From Acidaminococcus massiliensis (GTDB lineage Bacteria; Bacillota; Negativicutes; Acidaminococcales; Acidaminococcaceae): a stretch of 64,000 nucleotides of DNA. Positions 4,420 through 31,694 of the stretch are shown here, piece after piece. Both the position numbers and the translations under genes were made by a program. Below the pieces are notes generated by a model. The model worked only from the letters and a program-made list of their open reading frames with translations. It did not search any database and was not told where the DNA came from. Location of the stretch: contig NZ_LT608315.1 of NCBI RefSeq assembly GCF_900095825.1, positions 1,231,873 to 1,295,872 on the forward strand, in the 5' to 3' direction. Positions within the stretch are counted from its first letter, which is position 1. The number at the start of each line of letters is the position of its first letter.

Positions 4420-6568
<2,149 letters not shown>

Positions 6569-8853: not shown

Positions 8854-9731
8854 ATAAGTTTTCCATAGTCAAGCATGCCAAGATCTTCTTTTCCATCACA
8901 GCCGTGGTGCTGATCGTGGGGATCGTATCCATGTTCACCCGGGGCTTCAACCTGGGGATCGATTTCACCGGGGGCAGCATCCTGGATATCAAGTTCGACC
9001 AGCCGGTATCCGTGGCCCAGGTCCGGACCGTGCTCAGCGACCATCAGCTGGGCAGCAGCGTGATCCAGCTGGGCAGCAGCGACCAGCAGGTGGAGACCAG
9101 CCAATCGGTGCTGATCCGTACCGGGATCATCAGCGACAGCCAGCGGGTGGAAGTGATGAACGACCTGACCGGCCGCCTGGGGAAAAATGAAGTGCTCCGG
9201 GTGGAAAACGTGGGCGCTACCGTAGGCGGCGACCTGGTGAAATCTGCCATCGGGGCGGTGGTCCTCAGCTGGGTGCTGATGATCATCTATATCACCATCC
9301 GGTTCGAACTGCGCTTTGCCCTGGCCGCCATCGTGGCCCTGATCATCGATGTATTGGTGACCCTCACCTGGTTCTCGGTGCTCCACCTGGAAATTGATTC
9401 TTCCTTCGTGGCAGCTCTTCTGACCGTGGTCGGGTATTCTGTCAACGGCACCATCGTGGTGTTCGACCGGATCCGGGAAAATCTCCATACCCATCGCCGG
9501 AACGAAAGCATGGGGGATTTGGTGGATGCCAGCATCTGGCAGACCATGACCCGGAGCGTGTACACCACCCTGACCACCTTGTTTGCGGTGGTGGCCATCT
9601 TCCTGTTCGGGGGAGAGACCATCCACAACTTCTCCTTCGCCATGCTGGTGGGCTTCTGCAGCGGGTTCTACACCTCCACTTTCCTGGCCGGGAGCATGTG
9701 GCTGTTCTTTCGAAAAAAACTGAGGAGATAA
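8850..9731 (+). CDS. secF: Protein translocase subunit SecF
   Basis: The 293-residue partner of SecD has the N-terminal span, the GIDFTGGS motif of the periplasmic domain, and the VGYSVNGTIVVFDRIREN block in the C-terminal membrane half. It is translationally coupled to secD by an ATGA overlap. Its last codons and stop are part of a 12-bp perfect inverted repeat (9724-9753). Confidence 0.96.
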   Translation: MNKFSIVKHAKIFFSITAVVLIVGIVSMFTRGFNLGIDFTGGSILDIKFDQPVSVAQVRTVLSDHQLGSSVIQLGSSDQQVETSQSVLIRTGIISDSQRVEVMNDLTGRLGKNEVLRVENVGATVGGDLVKSAIGAVVLSWVLMIIYITIRFELRFALAAIVALIIDVLVTLTWFSVLHLEIDSSFVAALLTVVGYSVNGTIVVFDRIRENLHTHRRNESMGDLVDASIWQTMTRSVYTTLTTLFAVVAIFLFGGETIHNFSFAMLVGFCSGFYTSTFLAGSMWLFFRKKLRR

Positions 9732-9753
9732 GGCGGCAAGGCGCCTTATCTCC
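9724..9753. repeat. Perfect 12-bp hairpin spanning the secF stop codon
   Basis: GGAGATAAGGCG (9724-9735) pairs with CGCCTTATCTCC (9742-9753) around a 6-nt loop. No T run follows, so it is not a classic terminator on its own; a true one lies at 9792-9823. Confidence 0.75.
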
Positions 9754-9756
9754 AGA

Positions 9757-10016
9757 TGGAAGTCAGGAGTCTGGAGTCGGAAGCCTCAGGTTAGGACCTG
9801 GCTTGATTGGCCAGGTCCTTTTTATTGTGTAAAACCGTAGGGGCGCAGGCCTGTCACACTGCTGGATGAACGAACTATCGGCGAATCTGTGGGTTCCCTG
9901 GCGTGGAGTTCCTACGGTACCGATTTACACATTCAAAAAATTTGCCTGCAAGTTTTCTCCATGGACTTCCGACTTCAGACTCCGGACTTGAGCCGCTGTG
10001 CGGCTCTATAGCTGCG
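9757..10016. repeat. Intergenic word-repeat element, copy A
   Basis: This 260-bp gene-free stretch starts with GAAGTC/GGAGTC words and ends with their inverted copies (GACTTCC, GACTTCA, GACTCC), giving degenerate terminal inverted repeats of about 25 bp. Inside are a terminator hairpin, a GTAGGGGCG motif (9837-9845), and a near-palindrome AAATTTGC-CT-GCAAGTTT around 9939-9956. The same layout recurs at 36486-36694. It fills the gap between secF and the next gene; no ORF was seen. Confidence 0.6.
9792..9823 (+). terminator. Intrinsic terminator downstream of secF
   Basis: AGGACCTGGC pairs with GCCAGGTCCT around a 7-nt loop and runs into TTTTT. Confidence 0.8.
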
Positions 10017-26088: not shown

Positions 26089-29000
26089 ATGGCTGCTTTT
26101 GATAAGTTTATCCATCAGTATCAGGTTTCGAAGACCCTGCGTTTTGCTTTGATTCCCCAGGGGAAGACTCTTGAAAACACTAAAAATAACGTTTTGCAGG
26201 AGGATGATGAACGTCAGAAAAATTATGAAAAGGTCAAACCGATCCTGGACCGTATCTATAAAGTATTTGCAGAGGAAAGCCTAAAAGATTGTTCTGTGGA
26301 TTGGAACGACCTGAACGCCTGCCTGGATGCCTACCAGAAAAATCCTTCCGCTGATAAGCGTCAAAAGGTAAAAGCTGCCCAGGATGCACTCCGGGATGAA
26401 ATCGCTGGCTATTTTACCGGGAAACAATATGCGAATGGAAAAAATAAAAATGCGGTGAAGGAAAAAGAACAGGCCGAATTGTACAAAGATATTTTTAGCA
26501 AAAAAATTTTTGATGGAACCGTAACCAATAATAAATTGCCCCAAGTAAATCTTTCTGCAGAGGAAACAGAGCTTCTGGGCTGCTTTGATAAATTTACCAC
26601 TTACTTCGTCGGTTTTTATCAGAACAGAGAGAATGTTTTTTCGGGGGAAGATATTGCAACGGCCATTCCCCATCGGATCGTCCAGGACAATTTTCCAAAA
26701 TTCCGGGAGAATTGCAGAATCTACCAGGACCTCATAAAAAATGAACCGGCACTGAAACCTTTGCTGCAGCAGGCTGCTGCTGCAGTGATGGCTCAGAACC
26801 CCAAGGGAATCTATCAGCCAAGGAAATCGTTGGATGATATTTTTGTGATTCCATTTTATAATCATCTGTTGTTACAAGATGATATTGATTATTTCAACCA
26901 GATCTTGGGAGGCATCAGCGGTGCTGCAGGACAGAAAAAAATCCAGGGCCTGAACGAAACCATCAATCTATTCATGCAGCAGCATCCCCAGGAAGCTGAC
27001 AAATTAAAGAAGAAGAAGATTCGCCATCGGTTCATCCCTCTTTACAAGCAGATTTTAAGCGATCGTACCAGCTTTTCGTTTATCCCAGAGGCTTTTTCCA
27101 ATTCTCAGGAAGCCCTGGATGGGATAGAAACCTTTAAAAAATCCTTGAAAAAGAACGATACCTTTGGCGCTTTGGAGCGGCTCATCCAAAATCTTGCTTC
27201 TTTAGACCTGAAATATGTTTATCTTTCCAATAAAAAAGTCAATGAAATATCCCAGGCTTTGTATGGGGAATGGCATTGTATCCAGGATGTGCTGAAGCAG
27301 GATTTTTCCCTGGAATCGCTTATCCAGATAAATCCGCAAAATTCTTCCAATGGATTCCTTGCCACTTTGACCGATGAAGGCAAAAAAAGAATCTCCCAGT
27401 GCAGGAATGTCCTTGGGAATCCGTTGCCTGTCAAATTGGCGGATGACCAGGATAAAGCACAGGTCAAGAATCAGCTGGATACGCTGCTGGCTGCTGTCCA
27501 TTATCTGGAATGGTTCAAAGCGGATCCTGACCTGGAAACCGATCCGAATTTTACGGTTCCTTTTGAAAAAATCTGGGAAGAGTTGGTTCCTTTGCTGAGC
27601 CTTTATAGTAAAGTACGGAATTTTGTGACCAAAAAGCCTTATTCTACAGCAAAATTCAAGCTGAATTTTGCCAACCCCACATTGGCCGATGGCTGGGATA
27701 TCCATAAAGAATCAGATAATGGAGCCTTGTTATTTGAAAAAGGAGGTTTGTATTATCTGGGGATTATGAATCCCAAAGATAAACCTAATTTTAAATCTTA
27801 TCAAGGGGCCGAACCATACTATCAGAAAATGGTTTATCGGTTCTTTCCGGACTGTTCCAAGACAATACCAAAATGTTCTACCCAGAGAAAAGATGTGAAA
27901 AAATATTTCGAAGACCATCCCCAAGCCACTTCCTACCAGATTCATGATTCAAAAAAGGAAAAATTCAGACAAGATTTTTTCGAGATTCCCCGGGAAATCT
28001 ATGAATTGAACAATACTACGTATGGTACGGGGAAAAGTAAATACAAGAAATTCCAGACCCAGTATTATCAGAAGACCCAAGATAAATCTGGATATCAAAA
28101 AGCCCTTCGCAAATGGATCGATTTTTCCAAAAAATTTTTGCAGACGTATGTAAGTACCTCAATTTTTGATTTCAAGGGGCTGCGTCCCAGCAAGGACTAT
28201 CAAGATTTGGGGGAATTTTATAAGGATGTCAACAGCAGATGCTATCGGGTCACTTTTGAAAAAATCAGGGTACAAGATATCCATGAGGCTGTAAAAAATG
28301 GCCAGCTGTATCTGTTCCAGCTGTACAACAAAGACTTTTCCCCCAAAAGCCATGGTCTGCCCAATCTCCATACCCTTTACTGGAAAGCAGTTTTTGACCC
28401 CGAAAATTTAAAGGATCCGATTGTGAAACTCAATGGGCAGGCTGAATTGTTCTATCGTCCCAAGAGCAACATGCAGATTATCCAGCATAAAACCGGTGAA
28501 GAGATCGTAAATAAGAAACTGAAGGATGGGACGCCAGTCCCTGATGATATCTATCGGGAAATCTCTGCTTATGTACAAGGCAAGTGCCAGGGAAATTTAT
28601 CTCCGGAAGCTGAAAAATGGCTGCCTTCAGTGACCATTAAAAAGGCTGCCCATGATATTACCAAGGACAGACGGTTTACGGAAGACAAATTCTTCTTCCA
28701 TGTTCCCATTACCCTGAACTACCAAAGCTCGGGCAAACCAACTGCCTTTAATTCCCAGGTCAATGATTTCTTGACAGAGCATCCAGAGACCAATATCATC
28801 GGTATCGATCGGGGAGAAAGGAACCTGATTTATGCGGTAGTTATAACTCCCGATGGGAAAATCCTGGAACAAAAATCCTTTAATGTGATCCATGACTTCG
28901 ATTATCATGAAAGCTTGAGCCAGAGAGAAAAACAGCGGGTGGCAGCCCGCCAGGCATGGACCGCCATTGGTCGGATCAAAGATCTGAAAGAGGGGTATCT

Positions 29001-29997
29001 GTCTCTGGTCGTCCATGAGATTGCCCAGATGATGATCAAATACCAGGCTGTGGTTGTACTGGAAAATCTCAATACGGGATTTAAACGTGTCCGTGGAGGG
29101 ATTTCAGAAAAAGCCGTCTATCAGCAGTTTGAAAAGATGCTCATAGAAAAACTGAATTTCCTTGTGTTCAAAGATCGGGCCATAAATCAGGAAGGCGGGG
29201 TACTGAAAGCGTATCAGCTGACGGACAGCTTCACCAGTTTTGCAAAATTAGGGAATCAAAGTGGATTCCTGTTCTACATCCCTTCCGCTTATACATCTAA
29301 GATAGATCCAGGCACGGGCTTTGTAGATCCTTTCATCTGGAGCCATGTTACAGCCAGTGAGGAGAATCGGAATGAATTTCTGAAGGGGTTCGACAGTTTG
29401 AAGTATGATGCCCAATCTAGTGCTTTTGTCCTGCATTTCAAGATGAAGAGCAACAAACAGTTCCAAAAGAACAATGTGGAAGGATTCATGCCTGAATGGG
29501 ATATCTGCTTTGAGAAAAACGAAGAGAAAATCAGTCTGCAGGGAAGCAAATATACTGCCGGAAAGCGGATCATTTTCGATTCCAAGAAAAAACAGTATAT
29601 GGAGTGTTTTCCCCAAAATGAACTGATGAAGGCCCTGCAGGATGTTGGCATCACTTGGAATACGGGGAATGATATCTGGCAGGATGTCCTTAAGCAGGCG
29701 TCGACTGATACTGGGTTCCGGCATCGCATGATCAATCTGATCCGCTCCGTGCTGCAGATGCGCAGCAGCAATGGAGCAACCGGCGAAGATTACATCAATT
29801 CGCCCGTCATGGATTTGGATGGCCGTTTCTTCGATACCAGGGCGGGTATCCGGGATCTGCCGCTGGACGCAGACGCCAATGGGGCATACCATATTGCCTT
29901 AAAGGGAAGAATGGTCCTGGAGCGGATCCGCAGTCAAAAAAATACAGCCATCAAAAATACAGATTGGCTGTATGCCATTCAGGAAGAAAGAAACTGA
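26089..29997 (+). CDS. cas12a: CRISPR effector nuclease Cas12a (Cpf1), type V-A
   Basis: Cas12a processes its own crRNA and cuts T-rich-PAM DNA with a single RuvC site. The 1302-residue protein is full length and colinear with the 1307-residue Acidaminococcus AsCas12a (compared from memory). RuvC residues are D907 (GIDRGER), E992 (VLENLN) and D1262 (DADANGAYH). The Nuc-domain Arg is R1225, and the RNA-processing His is H800. In the PAM-contact loop the protein has D534, K540 and N544 where AsCas12a has S542, K548 and N552, so one key position differs. Base composition is lower in GC than the flanks, a sign of transfer. A weak GAGGG site precedes the ATG. Confidence 0.98.
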   Translation: MAAFDKFIHQYQVSKTLRFALIPQGKTLENTKNNVLQEDDERQKNYEKVKPILDRIYKVFAEESLKDCSVDWNDLNACLDAYQKNPSADKRQKVKAAQDALRDEIAGYFTGKQYANGKNKNAVKEKEQAELYKDIFSKKIFDGTVTNNKLPQVNLSAEETELLGCFDKFTTYFVGFYQNRENVFSGEDIATAIPHRIVQDNFPKFRENCRIYQDLIKNEPALKPLLQQAAAAVMAQNPKGIYQPRKSLDDIFVIPFYNHLLLQDDIDYFNQILGGISGAAGQKKIQGLNETINLFMQQHPQEADKLKKKKIRHRFIPLYKQILSDRTSFSFIPEAFSNSQEALDGIETFKKSLKKNDTFGALERLIQNLASLDLKYVYLSNKKVNEISQALYGEWHCIQDVLKQDFSLESLIQINPQNSSNGFLATLTDEGKKRISQCRNVLGNPLPVKLADDQDKAQVKNQLDTLLAAVHYLEWFKADPDLETDPNFTVPFEKIWEELVPLLSLYSKVRNFVTKKPYSTAKFKLNFANPTLADGWDIHKESDNGALLFEKGGLYYLGIMNPKDKPNFKSYQGAEPYYQKMVYRFFPDCSKTIPKCSTQRKDVKKYFEDHPQATSYQIHDSKKEKFRQDFFEIPREIYELNNTTYGTGKSKYKKFQTQYYQKTQDKSGYQKALRKWIDFSKKFLQTYVSTSIFDFKGLRPSKDYQDLGEFYKDVNSRCYRVTFEKIRVQDIHEAVKNGQLYLFQLYNKDFSPKSHGLPNLHTLYWKAVFDPENLKDPIVKLNGQAELFYRPKSNMQIIQHKTGEEIVNKKLKDGTPVPDDIYREISAYVQGKCQGNLSPEAEKWLPSVTIKKAAHDITKDRRFTEDKFFFHVPITLNYQSSGKPTAFNSQVNDFLTEHPETNIIGIDRGERNLIYAVVITPDGKILEQKSFNVIHDFDYHESLSQREKQRVAARQAWTAIGRIKDLKEGYLSLVVHEIAQMMIKYQAVVVLENLNTGFKRVRGGISEKAVYQQFEKMLIEKLNFLVFKDRAINQEGGVLKAYQLTDSFTSFAKLGNQSGFLFYIPSAYTSKIDPGTGFVDPFIWSHVTASEENRNEFLKGFDSLKYDAQSSAFVLHFKMKSNKQFQKNNVEGFMPEWDICFEKNEEKISLQGSKYTAGKRIIFDSKKKQYMECFPQNELMKALQDVGITWNTGNDIWQDVLKQASTDTGFRHRMINLIRSVLQMRSSNGATGEDYINSPVMDLDGRFFDTRAGIRDLPLDADANGAYHIALKGRMVLERIRSQKNTAIKNTDWLYAIQEERN

Positions 29998-30000
29998 AAA

Positions 30001-30098
30001 ATGGAAGATGACTATCTGCCGATATTTTTTTGAATGATTTCATCTTTTGCCCGGTCTCCATATATTTTCATCAATTATATGGGGACCAGGCCCCCATT
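30001..30098 (+). pseudogene. cas4: cas4 relic: frameshifted 5' end joined to cas1
   Basis: An ATG at 30001 opens MEDDYLPIFF and then meets TGA at 30031 because a T tract (30025-30031) has seven T; eight would restore the frame. The restored reading continues LNDFIFCPVSIYFHQLYGD, which matches the start of type V-A Cas4 proteins, including the first Fe-S cysteine. Then the sequence passes directly into the cas1 start. The RecB-type nuclease motifs and the three C-terminal cysteines of Cas4 (normally some 170 more residues) are absent. It lies exactly where cas4 belongs, between cas12a and cas1. Confidence 0.8.
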
Positions 30099-31067
30099 AT
30101 GATGACAACCAAAGATTTTGAAGCCAAACAAATTATTTTTATTTTCCTGCAGCCTAAAGAAATCATTTCCTTTCAAAATGATAACATCCTCATAAAAACG
30201 GCTGACAGAAAAATCAAATATCAAATCACCTGTTATCGTATTTTTGCGTTATTTGTTGTGGGTCATTTTGTATTGACCAGTGGGTTGATACAACGCTCCC
30301 ACAAATTTGGCTTTCCGATCTTTTTAATGACGAATGGGTTTAAACTCTATGAATCATTTGGAGGCCATATGGAAGGAAATATACTGCTGCGAAAACATCA
30401 GTATGAGTACCAGGGATTGGAGTTGGGAAAGCATATCCTGATGAATAAAGTGAAATGTCAGCGAGAAAATCTAAATCTCCAGCGGGACAAATCAGAAGAG
30501 CTGAAAAAGGCAATTGCTGCTTTGGATCGTTACATCAAAGAAATAGAATATTATCAGGGAAATTTAGAAGGCCTTTTGGGACTCGAAGGCTCGGCGGCCA
30601 GGATTTATTTTAAACAGGAGTTCAATAATGTCCAGTGGGGAGGGAGAAAGCCAAGGATCAAGAATGATTATATCAATTCGACTTTGGATATAGGATATAC
30701 GGTACTTTTTAATTTTATGGATGCATTGCTGCGGATTTATGGATTCGATACGTATTGTGGTGTATTGCATCGGCAATTTTATATGCGGAAATCGTTAGTC
30801 TGTGATGTAATGGAGCCGTTTCGGGCTATCGTAGATCATCAAATCAGAAAATCCATTAATTTACAACAATGTGCTGAAGAAGATTTTCAACTTGTGGATC
30901 ATCGGTATCTCTTGAAATGGAAGGAAAATCAGAAATATATTCAATTCCTGATGAAAGGAATCCTACAATACAAAATGGATATCTTTGTTTATGTCCAGCA
31001 ATTTTATCGTGCATTCATGAAACAGAAAGACGCCAAGGATTATCCTGTATTTGAGATGATAAAATGA
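30099..31067 (+). CDS. cas1: CRISPR adaptation endonuclease Cas1 (type V-A)
   Basis: Cas1 integrates new spacers together with Cas2. From ATG 30099 it has 322 residues, with the N-terminal beta domain (KDFEAKQIIFIFL) and the helical catalytic domain. Likely metal ligands are E163 (GLEGSAAR), H224 (GVLHRQF) and D236/E239 (CDVMEPFR). The frame is open upstream to a TTG at 30030, which adds 23 residues of cas4 origin; the ATG at 30099 (or the next codon) is the natural Cas1 start. There is little ribosome-site signal, so translation may once have been coupled to cas4. It overlaps cas2 by 4 nt. Confidence 0.93.
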   Translation: MMTTKDFEAKQIIFIFLQPKEIISFQNDNILIKTADRKIKYQITCYRIFALFVVGHFVLTSGLIQRSHKFGFPIFLMTNGFKLYESFGGHMEGNILLRKHQYEYQGLELGKHILMNKVKCQRENLNLQRDKSEELKKAIAALDRYIKEIEYYQGNLEGLLGLEGSAARIYFKQEFNNVQWGGRKPRIKNDYINSTLDIGYTVLFNFMDALLRIYGFDTYCGVLHRQFYMRKSLVCDVMEPFRAIVDHQIRKSINLQQCAEEDFQLVDHRYLLKWKENQKYIQFLMKGILQYKMDIFVYVQQFYRAFMKQKDAKDYPVFEMIK

Positions 31068-31336
31068 TTATCTTGAGTTATGATATTGCAGATGACAGGC
31101 TGCGGAATCATTTTGCCAAGTACATCACAAAATTCGGACACCGCATCCAGTACTCTGTTTACCAAATTGACAACAGCAGCAGAGTGTTGGATAATATAAT
31201 TAGTTATATCCAAGGCCACTTTGAAAAGAAATTTGGCCAGAGTGACAGCGTCTATATTTTTAAGCTGTCCAATACTTGTGAAGTAGTAAGGATGGGGTAT
31301 GCTAAAAATGAAGAAAAAGATCTGGTCGTCTTTTGA
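31064..31336 (+). CDS. cas2: CRISPR adaptation protein Cas2
   Basis: A 90-residue ferredoxin-fold protein with the N-terminal beta strand and Asp motif ILSYDIADDRLR, then FGHRIQYSVYQI, and a C-terminal beta strand. Cas2 bridges two Cas1 dimers in the integration complex. Its ATG lies within the cas1 stop (ATGA). The leader and array follow directly. Confidence 0.95.
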   Translation: MIILSYDIADDRLRNHFAKYITKFGHRIQYSVYQIDNSSRVLDNIISYIQGHFEKKFGQSDSVYIFKLSNTCEVVRMGYAKNEEKDLVVF

Positions 31337-31464: not shown

Positions 31465-31694
31465 GTCTAAAAGACCATATGAATTTCTACTTTCGTAGAT
31501 CGATAGATTCAGCTCGTTGTTCAGCGTGTCTAAAAGACCATATGAATTTCTACTTTCGTAGATTCACTGGTCTGATATCAACCACCAAAAGTCTAAAAGA
31601 CCATATGAATTTCTACTTTCATAGATGTAGATTGTAAGCGTGCATTGCAGGTTTTTTAGTCTAAAAGATTATATGGATTTCTATTTTCGTAGAT
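31465..31694 (+). CRISPR. Type V-A CRISPR array: 4 repeats, 3 spacers
   Basis: Repeats of 36 nt start at 31465, 31528, 31591 and 31659. Each ends in the Cas12a handle AATTTCTACTTTCGTAGAT, whose TCTAC/GTAGA stem closes a TTTC loop. Repeats 1 and 2 are identical. Repeat 3 carries G-to-A at the loop-closing base (ATAGAT) and is followed at once by GTAGAT again. Repeat 4 has CC-to-TT, A-to-G and C-to-T changes, as expected of a leader-distal end. Spacers are 27, 27 and 32 nt, or 26 if the repeated GTAGAT belongs to repeat 3. Orientation is the same as the cas genes. Confidence 0.97.

Follow-up and report, generated by a model that had tools for sequence, protein, structure and literature searches.

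The cas4 gene of the type V-A CRISPR-Cas locus in the 64,000-nucleotide stretch of Acidaminococcus massiliensis DNA analysed here (the window) is a recent pseudogene, which carries a large internal deletion and a frameshift at a T run. The locus is of type V-A, with a Cas12a effector, a Cas1 of the V-A (PREFRAN) type, a Cas2, an array whose repeats end as is typical of V-A (TTTCTACT...GTAGAT) and a T-rich 5' PAM at the protospacers of the two spacers, out of three, that could be placed (TTTC, CTTC). A Cas4 nuclease, which is usual but not universal in type V-A, is missing: the locus covers 20 of the 178 positions of the type V Cas4 profile TIGR04328 and scores 25.1 bits where the cut-off is 70. 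We consider it likely that the remaining parts of the locus work on as proposed below, with a type I-C system of the same genome carrying most adaptation.

Table 1. Features of the type V-A locus, in positions of the window.
Feature	Position	Strand	Evidence and remarks
cas12a, 1302 aa, intact	26089..29997	+	TIGR04330, 1025.6 bits, above cut-off; full-length match to solved Cas12a chains, 1326.8 bits
cas4 start and first 10 codons (MEDDYLPIFF), early TGA	30001..30033	+	Sequence; ATG 3 nt past the cas12a stop, cas4 close behind cas12a in relatives too
7-T run, site of the frameshift (position +/- one base)	30025..30031	+	Sequence; S/T-x-L-N-D-F here in intact relatives
cas4 remnant with first Fe-S cysteine	30030..30084	+	TIGR04328, E 1.5e-5; 17/18 identity to intact Cas4; alignment A3
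Inverted repeat across the deletion junction, just 5' of the cas1 start (ends approximate)	30049..30092	+	RNA fold and complementarity
cas1, V-A (PREFRAN) type, intact; start ATG 30099 or 30102	30099..31067	+	TIGR04329, 411 bits; conserved residues kept
cas2, 90 aa, intact	31064..31336	+	TIGR01573, above cut-off; 56-61% identity to relatives
V-A CRISPR array, 4 repeats (last degenerate), 3 spacers (27, 27 and 32 nt)	31465..31694	+	Array parsing
Spacer 1	31501..31527	+	G764 with 3 mismatches (24/27), 5' flank TTTC; G765 with 2 mismatches (25/27), flank TTTT
Spacer 2	31564..31590	+	G764 with 1 mismatch (26/27), 5' flank CTTC

The stop codon of cas12a occupies 29995-29997 and the next ATG lies at 30001. 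Frame 0 from this ATG reads MEDDYLPIFF and then meets a TGA. Shifting at the 7-T run into the neighbouring frame gives LNDFIFCPVSIYFHQLYGDQAPIMMTTKDF, and this frame is open all the way into Cas1. ORF calling gives a 345-aa frame with a TTG start (30030-31067) that spans the cas4 remnant and Cas1, and residues 1-20 of this ORF match positions 6-25 of the NCBIfam TIGR04328 profile (E 1.5e-5). The stretch 30030-30083 is identical at 17 of 18 residues (E 2.5e-7) to the intact Cas4 of a genome of the same family. Given the profile match and this near-identity, the remnant (LNDFIFCPVSIYFHQLYG, 17-18 codons, nearly identical to intact V-A Cas4) is not a chance resemblance. Compared with the Cas4 of Anaerovibrio, 17 codons of the remnant are identical in protein and the DNA differs by 6 synonymous and 0 nonsynonymous changes; since all six differing sites over these 17 codons are synonymous, the loss of cas4 is recent on the Anaerovibrio scale. 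According to alignment A3, the remnant keeps the first Fe-S cysteine and has lost the nuclease motifs together with the cluster of cysteines at the C-terminus, hence of the catalytic motifs and four Fe-S cysteines of the Cas4 family the first cysteine alone is left. The same alignment shows that the residue two before the conserved LNDF motif is S or T in five aligned relatives and F here, a replacement that contributed to the making of the T run. A preliminary description of this DNA had recognised a frameshifted 5' stub of cas4 before cas1, devoid of the nuclease core and of three Fe-S cysteines, and was right in this; its Cas4 N-terminus of about 33 codons holds for the ATG at 30001, the shift at the seven T residues and the homology, but clear homology ends at about 30084.

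The distance from the cas4 ATG to the cas1 ATG is 554 bp in Anaerovibrio and Lachnoclostridium (both intact) versus 98 bp here. This shortfall of 456 bp (3 x 152, that is, 152 codons) relative to the two intact relatives agrees with the earlier proposal that cas4 was lost by deletion, and places the DNA missing inside cas4, nuclease core included, at about 456-460 bp. Because the net change is divisible by three, the cas4 frame retains its original end, an ATGA overlapping the cas1 start (frame-0 stop at 30100-30102, by frame arithmetic), the same arrangement as in Anaerovibrio and Lachnoclostridium; the retained overlap is either a one-in-three coincidence or has been kept for the coupling of cas1 translation. 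The RNA fold of 29990-30130 has an energy of -34.3 kcal/mol (z -2.68), the outer 9-base extension of the inverted repeat is complementary at 7 of 9 positions (empirical P 0.0017), and the sequence past the junction turns what was ancestrally a small palindrome into a long hairpin. A template switch at the palindrome is a possible cause of the deletion.

A Cas12a profile search across 59 genomes of the family found the effector in four, the window genome included. One of these, Candidatus Phascolarctobacterium caballi (G032, locus L046), has a complete cas12a-cas4-cas1-cas2 set on a 5872-base contig, and the V-A locus of Anaerovibrio sp. RM50 (G471, locus L047), a member of the same class, is complete as well. 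Both are like the window locus in Cas12a, Cas1, Cas2 and the Cas4 N-terminus, and differ from it in having a full-length cas4 (192 and 185 aa, respectively). The phylum and class searches for V-A cas1 relatives returned these two genomes only, besides the window genome; single-protein searches found none in genome or viral contigs, a plasmid search found none either, and an alignment query gave seven loci (one weak) in genome contigs and none in viral contigs. In all six other V-A cas1 loci examined, cas4 sequence lies directly upstream of cas1. Two of the six show apparent cas4 frameshifts (L051, 5035-5600, a gapped draft with a run of N; L050, 1236-1801, a low-coverage MAG contig), and the low quality of both assemblies makes sequencing errors likely. 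The remaining two family genomes with Cas12a and arrays, G052 and G038, have no cas1, cas2 or cas4 near them. The regions concerned are 5013-5454 and 9535-9990 in the G052 locus (L043), whose downstream genes look mobile-element-like (an ArdC-like protein, by eye), and around 4815-5195 in the G038 locus (L044).

The V-A repeat has no other copy in the genome at up to 3 mismatches. G764, matched by spacers 1 and 2, is the IMG/VR contig IMGVR_UViG_3300010282_000322 of a tailed phage, with the V-A protospacers at L062:4440-4466 and L062:18027-18053; genes for tail, internal virion and major head proteins (PHROGs) lie beside the spacer 2 site. One type I-C spacer of the same genome also matches G764, at 33/35 and adjoining TTC, and the two V-A spacers and this one together point to G764 being a phage of this host. 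Spacers shuffled in five rounds gave no match. No convincing match was found for spacer 3, phage BLAST matches obtained with the spacers at E >=1 were discounted as random, and in the 59 family genomes no spacer target was present at up to 3 mismatches except the array itself. In G764, the fraction of positions is 0.057 for TTV and 0.018 for TTTV, and the chance of two correct-side TTV flanks is about 0.003; set against this chance, the correct-side T-rich flanks make the V-A spacers look PAM-selected, with no sign of blind picking. The V-A array is a real, PAM-compatible phage memory. The spacers may predate the loss of cas4, may have been chosen with the aid of the I-C Cas4 (both G764 flanks end in TTC) or may simply be the useful ones that survived. 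Their acquisition probably preceded the cas4 loss or was assisted in trans, and they might also postdate the loss. The small size of the array, once offered as fitting the loss of Cas4, was rejected as an argument: array sizes differ greatly from one relative to another (a single repeat in the flank covered in the intact-cas4 Anaerovibrio; 9, 14 and about 39 in others) and 2 of the 3 spacers match phage with correct-side T-rich flanks.

A survey of the genome for the Cas4 family found one further Cas4 (Pfam Cas4 model), identified by PADLOC as Cas4c (E 1e-86), with Cas1c as the adjoining gene. The operon reads as a full type I-C system, cas3-cas5-cas8c-cas7-cas4-cas1-cas2 (the effector genes are assigned only from the order and length of the ORFs), and beside it is an array of 65 repeats and 64 spacers (L033 2300-7100, G000:C4). 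The preliminary description did not include this complete I-C adaptation module with its own Cas4. It had asked whether an intact cas4 of matching type lies elsewhere in the genome: an intact Cas4 exists, but it is of type I-C, and neither the Pfam Cas4 model nor PADLOC found a second Cas4 of the V-A type in the genome.

We propose that no V-A Cas4 is made, that translation of Cas1 begins at its own ATG, the ATGA overlap being kept as in intact loci, and that Cas12a still interferes using the spacers present, most of which would have been acquired while cas4 still worked. Judging from experiments in F. novicida (PMC9419969, PMC13034035), new V-A spacers would still be integrated by Cas1-Cas2 without PAM selection; useful V-A updating would then be poor and the separate type I-C system would carry most current adaptation.

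That the whole V-A adaptation module is instead inactive, with cas1 and cas2 on their way out, we hold to be doubtful. The two family Cas12a loci that have arrays and no adaptation genes nearby speak for it, but in the window locus Cas1 and Cas2 are intact, their branch lengths are unremarkable with no elongation among relatives, the family-conserved residues are retained, and repeats 1 and 2 of the array are identical.

It is improbable that the V-A Cas1-Cas2 makes use of the Cas4 from the cell's own I-C system, in which case prespacers would be chosen next to TTC and the spacers would be usable by Cas12a. TTC is the usual type I-C PAM, the genome has an intact I-C cas4-cas1-cas2 set, and the V-A and I-C protospacers in G764 all have a 5' TTC. 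The V-A protospacers are only two, however, spacer 1 is flanked by TTTT in G765, and TTTC also suits the ordinary V-A PAM; Cas12a recognises C-containing PAMs such as CTTV (PMC7093978). Moreover, the V-A and I-C Cas1 proteins are about 27% identical, and a swapped Cas4 domain (I-G into V-B) gave no correct PAMs (PMC9419969). The related proposition that a V-A module without its own Cas4 keeps choosing usable spacers via the co-resident I-C Cas4, V-A spacers carrying the I-C TTC motif as a result, appears distinctly improbable.

As the species is represented by one genome (n=1), both the deletion and the 7-T run may be peculiar to this strain, and the T run could be a sequencing error. The latter reading, under which a single ORF really extends from 30001 into Cas1, has a small chance of being correct: a single homopolymer indel would suffice, and similar apparent indels occur in the draft relatives L050 and L051, but the assembly is in 4 contigs and 99.99% complete, and the F in place of the S or T that precedes the motif in relatives fits decay. 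The large deletion stands whichever T count is right.

Returning to the proposal that cas4 is a pseudogene and Cas1 starts on its own, a structure prediction for the 345-aa ORF shows a Cas1 fold (mean pLDDT 80.7), with residues 1-22 at a pLDDT below 50; its top PDB matches are Cas1 proteins, among them those of type I-C and of Cas4-containing complexes. Cas1 is most likely translated from one of the two ATG codons of its own, given the retained ATGA overlap, the disorder of residues 1-22 and the lack of a Shine-Dalgarno-like stretch 5' of the TTG at 30030. A Cas4-Cas1 fusion would join a Cas4 nuclease domain to Cas1, whereas the Cas4 side of the ORF amounts to about 24 residues, and the model gives no structure to residues 1-22; from the sequence, expression of these residues in a single polypeptide with Cas1 is possible but unlikely. 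A Cas1 with a Cas4-derived extension from the TTG had been suggested before, and of this the open frame holds true; that such a short N-terminal extension is made, from the TTG or by slippage at the T run, and has a role is highly improbable, for although the frame is open from 30030 through Cas1 and the remnant codons have no nonsynonymous change relative to Anaerovibrio, the start features and the contrast between the disordered extension and the well-folded Cas1 part speak against it as a normal product.

In the type V-A system of F. novicida integration needs only Cas1 and Cas2, while PAM choice needs Cas4, and the native cas4 of strain U112 appears mutated, with a TAG stop at codon 6 (PMC9419969, PMC13034035). 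The cas4-1 gene of the V-B system of Alicyclobacillus acidoterrestris likewise appears mutated in its native host (PMC9419969), and Cas4-Cas1 fusions are listed for types I-B, I-U and V-A (PMC5704561). Inactivated cas4 in type V hosts is thus already published, and the window locus is a further, more severe case, brought about by deletion. F. novicida U112 is similar in its cas12a-cas4-cas1-cas2 order and in the reported inactivating change near the cas4 start, but the rest of its cas4 is present, whereas in the window locus the nuclease core is physically deleted. The A. acidoterrestris cas4/1 shares the N-terminal frame disruption of the Cas4 part; it is a genuine Cas4-Cas1 fusion with the full nuclease domain, in contrast to the about 30 codons left here. 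Like the known fusions (I-B, I-U, V-A; type I-G Cas4/1), the window locus has a stretch derived from Cas4 that shares an open frame with Cas1, but it lacks nuclease motifs as well as C-terminal cysteines and is probably not translated as a fusion. What is new is the link to one tailed-phage contig, which is matched by two V-A spacers and also by an I-C spacer from this genome. Ordinary in kind as a cas4 pseudogene, the locus is a useful native test case: Cas4 confers PAM choice on V-A systems, and here cas4 is deleted, cas1, cas2, array and effector are intact, a type I-C system stands alongside and a phage target is at hand, which allows one to ask whether V-A adaptation devoid of Cas4 picks spacers blindly, lies dormant or receives help in trans. 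Taken with the F. novicida and A. acidoterrestris examples, the locus suggests that type V hosts have lost Cas4 repeatedly.
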